NCBI RefSeq assembly: GCF_000737575.1
Contig: NZ_CP006270.1
Location: 809,163-873,162, forward strand
Source: Synechococcus sp. KORDI-49
GTDB lineage: Bacteria; Cyanobacteriota; Cyanobacteriia; PCC-6307; Cyanobiaceae
Direction of reading: 5' to 3'
Length of the DNA: 64,000 nucleotides
Shown here: positions 60,341 to 64,000 of the stretch, in pieces
Layout: each line of letters starts with the position of its first letter
Numbering within the stretch: position 1 is the first letter of the stretch
Translations under genes and position numbers: made by a program
The notes under the pieces: model-generated
The model's input: only the letters and a program-made list of their open reading frames with translations
What the model was told of the DNA's origin: nothing
Databases searched by the model: none

Positions 60341-61036
60341 TCACGCTTCCGCGGACCAGACCAGATCGAAACGTCGGCGCAGGGCTTCCCGCAGCCGGGG
60401 CTGAACCTGTTCCACCGTCAACCCAGGCCGCCAGTCGCACAGACGACCCACCCGGCTGCCCCGGAGACCGCAGGGGGTGATGAGCTCAAACCCGCTCAGC
60501 GCACAGGACACATTCAGAGCGAGACCGTGCTGGGTGATCCAGCGACGGCATCCGGTTCCGATGGCCGCCACCTTGCGACCCTCCAGCCAGATCCCTGTGA
60601 AACCCGGGATGCGCTCTCCCACCAGGTCGAACTCCGCAAGCACATCCAGCAGCACCTGTTCCAGCTGACGCAGATACCAGTGCAGGTCCGGCTGGTGACG
60701 ACGCAGATCCAGCACCGGATAAGCCACCAGCTGGCCTGGCAGATGGTGCGTCACCTCCCCTCCGCGATCGATCCGGTGCAGCGGAGCCGGCGGAACCTGC
60801 GGATCGAAGTGAAGATGCTCAGCGCTGGCACCGCGACCGAGGGTGTAACAGGCCGGATGCTGCAGCAACCAGACCGCCTGCGGCTGGCAGGGATTCTCCA
60901 GAAGACGCTGCTGCCAGCGCCGCTGAGCGCTCCAGGCCTGCTCGAACGGCACCGGCTCCGCAGGCTCAAAAAGAATTGCACCGGAGGACTGTGCCGAATC
61001 GCCAACCGTTCCTAATTTGCCGTCAACAATCGGCAC
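60341..61036 (-). CDS. lipB: Octanoyl-[ACP]:protein N-octanoyltransferase
   Basis: 231 residues. [40 protein letters not shown] and the nucleophile in ELITPCGL are LipB signatures. It starts lipoate synthesis, needed by the E2 enzyme encoded at 56479. The GTG at 61036 is the only start before the conserved region. Only 11 nt separate it from the divergent hpf start. Confidence 0.93.
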
Positions 61037-61047
61037 AGGAGCGTTGC

Positions 61048-61635
61048 ATGAAGTTGCTGATCCATGGTCGCAACCTCGAGATCACGCCTGCCCTGCGGGA
61101 CTACACCCAGACCAAGCTCGAACGGGCGACGCATCACTTCGCTGAGGCGGTGCGCGAGGCGGATGTGCATCTCTCAGTGGCCCGCAACCCCCGTGTTCCT
61201 CAGCAGACCGCGGAGGTGACGGTCTTCGCCAACGGCACCGTGATCCGGGCTCAGGAGCGCAGTGAGAACCTCTACGCCAGCATCGACATGGCCGCTGGGA
61301 AGCTGGCGCGTCAGCTGCGGCGCTGGAAGGAGCGCCACAGCGATCACCACCACAGCCACGGCCACAGCGCCAGCCTGACGCCCGGCACCGAATCGATCAC
61401 CGATGACGAACCGGTGGACGGCTCACTGCTGAAGGGCCGCCATGCCGAGCTCCCCGACCCCGGCGTGCGCCGCAAATATTTCGCGATGCCGCCGATGAGC
61501 CTGGAGGAGGCCCGTCATCAGCTCGATCTGATCGATCACGACTTCTACCTCTTCCGCGACAGTGACAGCGGTGAGCTGCAGGTGATCTACCGGCGCAACC
61601 ATGGGGGCTACGGCGTGATTCAGGCTCGGGACTGA
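61048..61635 (+). CDS. hpf: Ribosome hibernation promoting factor (long form)
   Basis: 195 residues. N-terminal HPF/YfiA domain ([27 protein letters not shown]) and C-terminal dimerising domain ([29 protein letters not shown] ... [12 protein letters not shown]), as in cyanobacterial LrtA. It pairs ribosomes into inactive 100S particles in the dark or in starvation. The linker holds a His-rich patch ([10 protein letters not shown], residues 97-106). An AGGAG lies 6 nt before the ATG. Confidence 0.94.
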
Positions 61636-61649
61636 AGACCGCAACCGCC

Positions 61650-62327
61650 ATGGCCGATCCCCTTCAGGACCTTCCGGATCTGCCTCCCCTTCTGGACCAG
61701 GCCATCCTCGACCCGCTGCTGAATACCGAGCAGCTGATCGAATGCTGCGATGCCAGCCGGGAACGCAACATCCGGGCCATCTGCGGCACCCTGGCCAGGC
61801 TACCGGCCCTGCGCCATCGACTCGGGGGTGGTGACGGTCCACGACTGATCGCCGCCATCGACTTTCCGTTCGGCACCCTCCCCGCCGGTCTGCGACTGGC
61901 TGAGGCCCAGTGGGCGGCAGCCAACGGCGCCGACGAGCTGGATGTGGTGCCGGATTTCAGCGCCCTGGCCGATGGCGACTCCGGCCGCTTCGCCGAGGAC
62001 CTGGCCGCTCTGTGTGACCTGGGCCTCCCCCTGCGGGTGGTGCTCGACATGGCCAGGCTCAGCGACGCGCAGCTGGAACTGGCGGTGGAGGCGGCGATCG
62101 ATGCCGGGGCCAGCGGTGTGCAGACGGGAAACGGTTTCGGCCCCGCCTGCCATCCCGATCAGGTGAGCCAGCTGAAACAGCTCTGTCGCGGCCGCTGCGC
62201 GATCAAGGCCGCTGGCGGGATCCACAGCCTGGAGCTGGTGCACGATCTGGTTGCCGCCGGCGCCAACCTGCTCGGCACCAGCAGTGCGCCTCAACTGCTC
62301 CAGTCCCAGCGCCAGCCCATCGGTTGA
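61650..62327 (+). CDS. DeoC-like aldolase-fold protein lacking the Schiff-base lysine
   Basis: 225 residues, deoxyribose-phosphate aldolase family (LDQAILDPLLNTEQL, GADELDVVPDFSAL, AIKAAGGIHS). Asp98 and Lys186 correspond to Asp102 and Lys201 of the E. coli enzyme. The Schiff-base lysine (Lys167, in IKTSTG) is replaced by Gln158 in GVQTGNGFG. Aldolase chemistry by the usual route is therefore doubtful; a changed activity or structural role is possible. Located 14 nt after hpf; recO follows 4 nt later. Confidence 0.82.
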   Translation: MADPLQDLPDLPPLLDQAILDPLLNTEQLIECCDASRERNIRAICGTLARLPALRHRLGGGDGPRLIAAIDFPFGTLPAGLRLAEAQWAAANGADELDVVPDFSALADGDSGRFAEDLAALCDLGLPLRVVLDMARLSDAQLELAVEAAIDAGASGVQTGNGFGPACHPDQVSQLKQLCRGRCAIKAAGGIHSLELVHDLVAAGANLLGTSSAPQLLQSQRQPIG

Positions 62328-62331
62328 CCCC

Positions 62332-63141
62332 ATGGCGGAACGACGGCTGGAAGGGCTCGTCCTGAAGGTGGGTCCCCTGGGGGAGCACGACCGGCTGCTC
62401 ACTCTGCTCAGCGAGGCGGAGGGGGTGAGCCGGCTGGCGGTCCCTGGGGCGCGACGACCAAAAAGCAGCCTGGCCGCCGCTGCCCCGCTCACCCTCCTGG
62501 AGCTTCAGGTGGGAGGCCGCAGCGGACTGGCCCGGGTGCGGCAACTGCGCGTCCAGCGCAGTTTCAGCGGTCTGGGCCGGCGGCTGGAGACCCTGGCCGC
62601 CGCTCAGGCCCTCAGTGATCTCTGCCTGCTGATGGGCGCTGATGACGATCCGATCACCGGAATGCTGGCGACCCTGATGTTGCATCTGGAGCGGCTCGAG
62701 CAACGGGCCGAGGCCCCGACCATGGTGCTGGCGAGCACCGTTCAGGGCTGTGTCCACCTGCTGAGCCTCGGGGGCTACGGGCTGCCGCTGCAGAGCTGCT
62801 GCCGCAGCGGCGCCCCGCTGGATCCCCCCATCGGTCAGTGGGACTGGCGCTGCAGCCTTCTGCCCGAGGACGGCTTCGCCATCGGGGCGGAACCCACGGC
62901 GAGGCTGATGCTGAATCCGTCGGAGCTGGCCCTGCTGCAGCGGCTGCCCCGCCCGGATCTGCCCTGCCGACGCTCCGGGGAGCTGATGGGCCCCGAACCG
63001 GTTTGGCTCAGGCTGCTCTCCGTCGTGGAGCTCTGGATCCGCAGCCATCTGCCGAGAGGCAGCCGGGCGTTGCCGATGCTGCGGGAATCGCTGGCTCACC
63101 CTGCGGTGAGCGATCATGTGCCCGACGCGGGCGAATCTTGA
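62332..63141 (+). CDS. recO: DNA repair protein RecO
   Basis: 269 residues. N-terminal OB-fold (LEGLVLKVGPLGEHDRLLTLLSEAEG) and the LAVPGARRPKSSL segment are RecO signatures, followed by a helical domain. The usual C-terminal zinc cysteines are largely missing (only the QSCCRSG pair is seen). It helps RecR load RecA on gapped DNA. The ATG at 62332 gives the standard N-terminus. The stop overlaps the TTG of the next gene. Confidence 0.92.
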   Translation: MAERRLEGLVLKVGPLGEHDRLLTLLSEAEGVSRLAVPGARRPKSSLAAAAPLTLLELQVGGRSGLARVRQLRVQRSFSGLGRRLETLAAAQALSDLCLLMGADDDPITGMLATLMLHLERLEQRAEAPTMVLASTVQGCVHLLSLGGYGLPLQSCCRSGAPLDPPIGQWDWRCSLLPEDGFAIGAEPTARLMLNPSELALLQRLPRPDLPCRRSGELMGPEPVWLRLLSVVELWIRSHLPRGSRALPMLRESLAHPAVSDHVPDAGES

Positions 63142-64000
63142 GCGGCACGGTTTCCAGCGCGCGGGAGGAGGGACGCCAGGGTCTGATGGCCGTGGTGCGG
63201 CTCGAGGACTTCCGCCGGCTCTGGATCGGCCAGATCTTCTCCCAGCTGGCGGACAAGTTCTACATCGTGCTGATGGTGTTCCTGATCGCCCAGCACTGGG
63301 TGAGTCAGGACGCTCAGAGCAGCGGCGCCATGGCGGAGGTCGCCTCCGCCATCCGCATGGACATCGAGACCAGAGCTCAGCGCATCACCCTGCTGGCGAC
63401 AGGCATCTACGTGGCCAACACCGTGCCCGCCGTGCTGCTGGGAATGCTGGCGGGGGTCTGGGCCGACCGCTGGCCGAAACGGCGGGTGATGGTGGCCTCC
63501 AACGCCATGCGGGCCCTGCTGGTGCTGCTGGCCCCTGTCTGTCTCCTGCCGGGTCCTGAACTGCTCGGGCTCAGCTGGGGGTACTGGGCCCTGCTGCTGA
63601 TGACCTTCCTGGAGTCGGTGCTCACCCAGTTCTTCGCCCCGGCGGAACAGGCGGCCATTCCGCTGCTGGTGCCGAACAAACTGCTGCTGGCGGCCAATTC
63701 GCTTTACCAGGCCACCAGCATGGCAGCCACCATCGTGGGCTTCGCCCTCGGTCAACCGATCCTGCGACTGCTCAATCAGAGCCTCGCCAGCCTGGGACTG
63801 TCGGGAGGTGAATTCCTACTGCTGCCGTTCTGCTACGGCATGGCGGCTCTCAGCCTCAGCACCATCCGTCTGCGCGAGACCCCCTCGCGGCCGAACAACA
63901 TCGGCATCGGGGAAGAGATCCGTGAAGGACTGCAGGTGCTGGTGAAACGGCCGACCGTGCGGCGGGCCATGCGCAATCTGGTGCTGCTCTACAGCCTGCT
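63138..64000 (+). CDS. Major facilitator superfamily transporter, 5' part (runs off the window)
   Basis: The frame is open from a TTG at 63138 to the window end (287 residues). It begins MSGTVSSAREEGRQGLMAVV and has several membrane helices, with the MFS motif A region as GMLAGVWADRWPKRRVMVASN and the FESVLTQFF-like segment TFLESVLTQFFAPAEQAA. It resembles the LplT/enterobactin-exporter-like MFS group. An insertion rich in Ser/Gln/Ala between helices 1 and 2 (residues about 55-80) is unusual. The TTG overlaps the recO stop by 4 nt. Confidence 0.85.
   Translation, partial: MSGTVSSAREEGRQGLMAVVRLEDFRRLWIGQIFSQLADKFYIVLMVFLIAQHWVSQDAQSSGAMAEVASAIRMDIETRAQRITLLATGIYVANTVPAVLLGMLAGVWADRWPKRRVMVASNAMRALLVLLAPVCLLPGPELLGLSWGYWALLLMTFLESVLTQFFAPAEQAAIPLLVPNKLLLAANSLYQATSMAATIVGFALGQPILRLLNQSLASLGLSGGEFLLLPFCYGMAALSLSTIRLRETPSRPNNIGIGEEIREGLQVLVKRPTVRRAMRNLVLLYSL

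Follow-up and report, generated by a model that had tools for sequence, protein, structure and literature searches.

Introduction

DERA (DeoC, EC 4.1.2.4, TIGR00126) is a class I aldolase in which, in E. coli numbering, K167 carries the covalent adduct and D102 and K201 assist (available text of PMC8403123); the accessible portion of PMC6244999 assigns the roles of K167 and K201 likewise, as does that of PMC7671976 for adduct formation at K167. In cyanobacteria, DERA has been described as conserved yet non-essential (available sections of PMC5464585). Two further kinds of protein bear comparison with the one analysed here. Pseudoenzymes are defined by the absence, judged by sequence, of a conserved catalytic residue (available text of PMC10211241), and PLPHP/YggS proteins (COG0325) are apparently non-catalytic and homeostatic around a phosphorylated ligand (extract of PMC9601805). 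Our literature search, whose coverage left most subscription journals outside, found no published account of a lysine-less DeoC.

Here we analyse a deoC-like gene of Synechococcus sp. KORDI-49, located within a stretch of 64,000 nucleotides (the window; positions 809163-873162 of the single contig that makes up this 2.59 Mb genome). The original prediction held that the gene product is a DeoC-family protein with Gln at the Schiff-base lysine position and with Asp98 and Lys186 still present, that ordinary class I aldolase activity should not be expected of it, and that its retention between hpf and recO suggests another role.

Results

A DERA homologue without the Schiff-base lysine

The features of the locus, in window coordinates, are as follows.

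60341..61036, minus strand: lipB, the divergent neighbour within the conserved locus (TIGR00214, 186.1 bits)
61048..61635, plus strand: hpf, ribosome hibernation factor (TIGR00741, 95.3 bits), ending 14 nt upstream of the deoC-like start
61650..62327, plus strand: deoC-like gene, lysine-less DERA homologue of 225 aa (TIGR00126, PDB sequence matches, AlphaFold model)
61698..61700, plus strand: Gln17 codon (E. coli has Leu17, Lys-type relatives have His)
61941..61943, plus strand: Asp98 codon GAT (equivalent of E. coli D102)
62121..62123, plus strand: Gln158 codon CAG (Schiff-base position, E. coli K167)
62130..62132, plus strand: Asn161 codon (Ser/Thr in Lys-type relatives, T170 in E. coli)
62205..62207, plus strand: Lys186 codon AAG (equivalent of E. 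coli K201)
62214..62219, plus strand: phosphate-loop glycines Gly189-Gly190 (E. coli G204-G205)
62274..62282, plus strand: Gly209-Thr210-Ser211, second conserved loop (putative match to E. coli S238/S239, in a poorly aligned region)
62332..63141, plus strand: recO (TIGR00613, 53.0 bits), starting 4 nt past the deoC-like stop

The translated product includes the motifs GVQTGNGFG and AIKAAGGI. Alignment with the E. coli DeoC sequence, retrieved under its accession, places Gln158 at K167, Asp98 at D102, Lys186 at K201 and Cys45 at C47, and the residue assignments of the original prediction were thereby confirmed. The DERA phosphate-binding glycines G171, G204 and G205 are present as Gly162, Gly189 and Gly190. 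The window protein matches TIGR00126 with E = 3e-33 and 115.1 bits, narrowly below the curated equivalog cut-off of 117.3, and its top PDB sequence matches are DERAs (E down to 5.5e-21). The AlphaFold model (pLDDT 92.8) is a DERA-type TIM barrel, and the best 48 PDB entries in a fold comparison are all DERA-type aldolases or DERA-based designs (Z 25.0-32.8; 19-30% identity to DERA-type entries). The first non-DERA row, MJ1099, follows at Z 19.0, and no solved non-DERA structure in the comparison indicates a function for the window protein.

Pfam PF01791 does not match the window protein. This was dropped as a sign of divergence, because the model misses Lys-type relatives as well: among 21 of these a single one matched at the deoC locus, below the cut-off, and in 57 genomes very few picocyanobacterial DeoC proteins of either type matched PF01791. 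A sequencing or assembly error behind Gln158 was ruled out, as Gln is found in 33 of the 33 genus genomes read, including that of the window.

The lysine was lost once at the base of a large clade

The Gln had already been seen in all 22 same-genus sequences of a first alignment. Position 158 was then read in 195 genomes of the family, representing 52 genera and drawn from 371 genomes with a match: Gln in 136, Lys in 58 and Ile in one. Gln158 occurs in 33 genera and Lys158 in 19, with Lys and non-Lys residues together in no genus. In a set of 81 rows (71 family members and 10 other cyanobacteria) the counts were 50 Gln, 30 Lys and one Ile. Non-Lys rows form a single clade in a deoC tree built without positions 157-162 (support 99), and again in a tree of hpf, recO and lipB from the same 71 genomes (support 100); both were quick searches with SH-aLRT support only. 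Because one non-Lys clade is recovered on the deoC and neighbour-gene trees alike, the change from Lys158 to Gln happened a single time, in place beside recO, in a vertically inherited gene. The clade comprises the genus of the window and many small-genome genera, with the loss at its base; relatives outside the family indicate that Lys is probably the older state. A recent mutation is thus ruled out as the origin of Gln158. The loss is ancestral to this clade, although Gln is not universal in the family, 58 of the 195 family genomes having Lys.

A deoC match was found in 371 of 400 family genomes, and in 249 of the 251 of good quality, including genomes as small as 1.5-1.8 Mb; this near-universal single-copy retention makes it unlikely that the gene is useless. 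Only five of the 371 have two matches, and each of 57 genomes searched with TIGR00126 has a single one, so that no second, working DeoC was seen hidden in any of them. Among the matches listed, no internal stops were flagged in Gln-type deoC. In g32, a divergent small-genome group, two matches (G317 and G400) show the gene in part. Separately, the deoC match of locus L186 (G278) contains one internal TGA, which may reflect a damaged gene or a fault in the assembly. A phage origin was rejected: 16 IMG/VR loci encode relatives at 21-30% identity. The 80 named loci (74 Lys, 6 Gln) are a biased sample owing to a search pattern that included the Lys186 motif, and other cyanobacteria were therefore sampled with a profile.

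The locus is shared by Lys-type and Gln-type genes

Throughout the family, lipB, hpf and recO adjoin deoC in nearly all loci, Lys and Gln types alike; the exceptions are L120, without recO in a short flank, and L145, without hpf. Lys-type DeoC proteins of the family thus occupy the same lipB<-hpf-deoC-recO locus and are 41-56% identical to the window protein (20 rows), differing from it in that they keep Lys158. Outside the family, recO is frequently found beside deoC, and hpf and lipB matches are not. The median gap between the matched stretches of deoC and recO is 14 nt in 79 non-Lys family genomes and a wide 127.5 nt at 70 loci outside the family. At L009 (G023), L158 (G055) and L182 (G098), approximately 200-340 bases separate the two matches, where there are usually few. 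A scan of 60800-63400 found no sigma-70-like promoter site, which is of little information since 0.2 were expected by chance.

The pocket was altered together with the lysine

Gln-type proteins differ from their Lys-type relatives at further positions, including 17, 46, 129, 156 and 161. Strong switches fall at 17 (His to Gln), 46 (Val/Leu to Thr), 129 (Lys to Arg or other), 133 (Glu to Asp/Asn), 156 (Phe to Gly), 161 (Ser/Thr to Asn), 183 (Ala/Val to Cys) and 188 (Ser to Ala/Val). His17 is found in 56 and Ser161 in 54 of the 58 Lys-type family genomes. The 136 Gln-type genomes carry Gln17 in 116, Asn161 in 112 and Thr46 in 122, the window protein itself having Gly46. An acid occupies position 98 in all 136 (Asp in 99, Glu in 37), and Lys186 is present in 134, being replaced in G065 and G090. 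In g32, all 18 genomes keep Gln158, Lys186 and Thr46, with Glu98, Ala17 and Asp161 instead of the usual residues. Gly162, Gly189, Gly190, Gly209 and Thr210 are invariant in the 41 non-Lys rows outside g32. Three Lys-type members retain Lys158 and have another residue at 186 (Gln in L273 of G203 and in L281 of G159, Glu in L152 of G042); the helper lysine is therefore occasionally lost too.

Conservation was compared between 35 pocket sites and 176 other sites. The pocket set combined E. coli residues named in reviews with strand ends of the model and was partly a matter of judgement; it includes structural glycines, which may be needed for barrel folding. Mean entropy was 0.77 bits in the pocket versus 1.58 elsewhere for 42 non-Lys rows, and 0.27 versus 0.97 bits for 24 Lys rows, with 0 of 10,000 permutations as low in either case. 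Pocket sites are thus less conserved in the non-Lys than in the Lys rows. In our reading, the pocket was refitted on losing its nucleophile, while its phosphate end was retained.

Selection continued after the loss

Purifying selection acts on Gln-type deoC. Nei-Gojobori dN/dS was calculated for unsaturated pairs, 1 to 77 per genus subgroup, with the window's own gene in none of them. Median values in five genus subgroups were 0.084-0.108 for deoC, 0.044-0.091 for recO and 0.014-0.076 for hpf; in g32 they were 0.203 (37 pairs), 0.086 and 0.138, respectively. Lys-type values, from few pairs, were 0.116-0.341 for deoC and 0.208-0.314 for recO, and by this measure the Gln-type genes are therefore no less constrained than the Lys-type. 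Purifying selection shows that there is some function, not which one.

Branch lengths fitted on a fixed neighbour-gene topology add a change of rate. Within the Lys part of the tree deoC is the slowest of the four genes (5.38, versus 6.52 for hpf, 8.10 for recO and 6.03 for lipB), whereas in the non-Lys part without g32 it is the fastest (18.0 versus 9.5, 14.2 and 14.3). On the stem of the non-Lys clade deoC accumulated 0.34, compared with 0.20 for hpf, 0.22 for recO and 0.10 for lipB; on the g32 stem the values were 1.68 versus 0.96, 0.55 and 1.11. An older constraint on deoC was lifted after the loss, yet selection continued. The acceleration fits relaxation as well as it fits a new function. 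The DeoC proteins of g32 (L148, L149, L187-L194) are 24-28% identical to the window protein, and their very long stem is followed by renewed conservation.

Lysine-less DeoC proteins occur in other cyanobacterial families

In a TIGR00126 profile search of the class, 138 of 145 genomes, a set that includes 14 family members, had a match. The seven without a match all lie outside the family (G031, G464, G468, G474, G476, G479, G485), and some are incomplete. Position 158 was read in 134 non-family genomes, made up of 112 of the 124 non-family profile matches and 22 more genomes of family f24; 12 non-family matches, including four of the Met-bearing genus g4, were left out of this count. Lys was found in 127, Gln in four and Met in three, the non-Lys residues falling in three families. 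The loss of the lysine is thus wider than the window's family, a finding new to this analysis. In f11, G428 (L362/L434) and G033 (L363/L412) combine Gln158 with K186H and D98N and have lost all three catalytic residues. Gln158 is also present in G500 and G536 of f24, where two congeners keep Lys, and Met158 in G026 (L431), G462 (L450) and G501 (L414) of f4, where G492 keeps Lys.

A tree of 185 rows, without g32, requires five changes between Lys and non-Lys, or four if f4 is taken as one; strongly supported branches alone force three, in an analysis that printed long-branch warnings. Values of dN/dS for deoC, rough since synonymous divergence is high, were 0.041 for the G428-G033 pair (recO 0.048), 0.036 for G026-G462 and 0.069 for G500-G536. 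The non-family lysine-less lineages retain His17 and Thr161, and the refitted pocket is therefore special to the window's clade.

Cellular context

In E. coli-like salvage, deoB and pyrimidine-nucleoside phosphorylase feed DERA. Neither deoB (TIGR01696) nor the phosphorylase (TIGR02644) scored above its cut-off in any of 57 genomes, Lys-type included, where both gave weak partial matches; each was found in 6 of 14 controls. As Lys-type genomes are without these genes too, loss of deo salvage as the trigger of the switch is unsupported.

In Prochlorococcus NATL2A, whose deoC is presumably of the Gln type given its clade membership, deoC transcripts are enriched in extended darkness in both axenic culture and co-culture (available text of PMC5974335). 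The same text describes hpf as regulated by the stringent response and as not enriched in co-culture, and this last observation is, as far as that text goes, evidence against a simple co-regulation of hpf and deoC.

Discussion

By descent, the gene is the deoC of the cyanobacterial deoC-recO pair, altered in place. By function, the protein has most likely ceased to be a DERA. It shares with DERA the TIM barrel, the equivalents of D102 and K201, the phosphate-loop glycines and the adjacency to recO that many other cyanobacteria also have, and it differs in carrying Gln in place of the Schiff-base lysine. Given how DERA is known to work, class I aldolase activity would not be expected, in line with what had been predicted.

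The explanation that we favour, with moderate confidence, is that the protein is a pseudo-DERA: it would bind a phosphorylated metabolite non-covalently and perform no class I aldol chemistry. A single replacement of the Schiff-base lysine by Gln lies at the base of the clade, and the gene was retained under purifying selection after its nucleophile was gone. The pocket gained the conserved polar residues Gln17, Thr46, Gln158 and Asn161, with the phosphate-loop residues, the acid at 98 and, nearly everywhere, Lys186 retained. With the nucleophile, class I aldol chemistry would have disappeared; most likely a sugar-phosphate-like phosphorylated metabolite is bound non-covalently, the protein acting as a sensor, a buffer or a partner protein. 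Several observations count against this reading: the acceleration after the loss and the raised deoC dN/dS of g32, the lower pocket conservation of non-Lys than of Lys rows, the lack of a new pocket common to the other lysine-less lineages, Gly46 in the window protein, and the description of cyanobacterial DERA as non-essential. The proposal that retention between hpf and recO points to another role gains support from purifying selection and from the presence of Gln in 33 genera. Gene order invites the guess of a functional tie to the adjoining recO and hpf. In Prochlorococcus NATL2A the dark enrichment of deoC and the stringent-response regulation of hpf would favour such a tie, and the lack of hpf enrichment in co-culture speaks against it.

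The main rival is a new lysine-free sugar-phosphate enzyme, an isomerase, lyase or similar, in which Asp/Glu98 and Lys186 would form an acid-base pair and Gln158, Gln17 and Asn161 would position the substrate. The near-invariance of Lys186 (134/136), the acid found at 98 in every Gln genome and the conservation of the new pocket residues speak for such an enzyme, but Lys186 has been lost in G065 and G090 and the Gln/His/Asn lineage has neither Lys186 nor Asp98. We know of no lysine-free reaction of this kind for this branch of the fold, and consider the idea rather unlikely. It is improbable that the protein does little and that its frame is kept by translational coupling to recO: the short deoC-recO gap in the non-Lys family genomes and the overlap of the recO start with the deoC stop in G428 would fit, but coupling would preserve neither pocket residues nor a dN/dS of ~0.04-0.1, and the gap outside the family is wide. 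Slightly more doubtful still is a class I aldolase that has turned to Lys186 as its nucleophile. Lys186 is the sole conserved pocket lysine remaining, and relocated lysines are known in pseudokinases (available text of PMC10211241). However, other pocket residues were switched simultaneously, two Gln genomes lack Lys186, and comparison of the Lys and Gln types revealed no new conserved pocket lysine among the switched positions; the suggestion that an alternative lysine forms the Schiff base thus found no support. Slow decay, with conservation as leftover folding constraint in a gene on its way out, would account for the acceleration after the loss and the very long g32 stem, and deoC can be missing (7/145 class genomes, all non-family), but it is highly improbable given that all but two of the 251 family genomes of good quality keep the gene and that dN/dS is well below 1 in every set tested.

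The protein counts as a pseudoenzyme under the sequence-based definition in the available text of PMC10211241, and as a DERA by descent and fold. It departs from other pseudoenzymes in that no second, intact DeoC was found in the genome for it to regulate. PLPHP/YggS offers a parallel by analogy only, since it belongs to a separate family and binds PLP.

In three further cyanobacterial families the lysine has also gone, which suggests that aldolase turnover is not what DeoC is retained for in these bacteria. We tentatively propose, as a possibility somewhat short of probable, that a second, non-aldolase function of cyanobacterial DeoC predates and survives loss of the lysine, and that the pocket of the Gln clade was later refitted for a new non-covalent ligand or reaction. 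The repeated losses under purifying selection (to Gln or Met, and once together with the Asp and second Lys) might, on this still uncertain proposal, be explained by that older function.

These results bear on annotation. Among family members tested against the NCBIfam deoC equivalog TIGR00126, 14 of 29 without the lysine and 21 of 21 of Lys type score above the cut-off, as do 7 of 7 other cyanobacteria, two of them lysine-less (G026 and G033). The enzyme name carried by the lysine-less proteins is probably undeserved. A Prochlorococcus pathway analysis files deoC under sugar degradation (available text of PMC5974335); if our reading of the Gln-type proteins holds, this listing and like statements would need correction. 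Looking forward, the repeated losses of the lysine are natural experiments that separate the enzyme role of DeoC from any other role that it may have in cyanobacteria.
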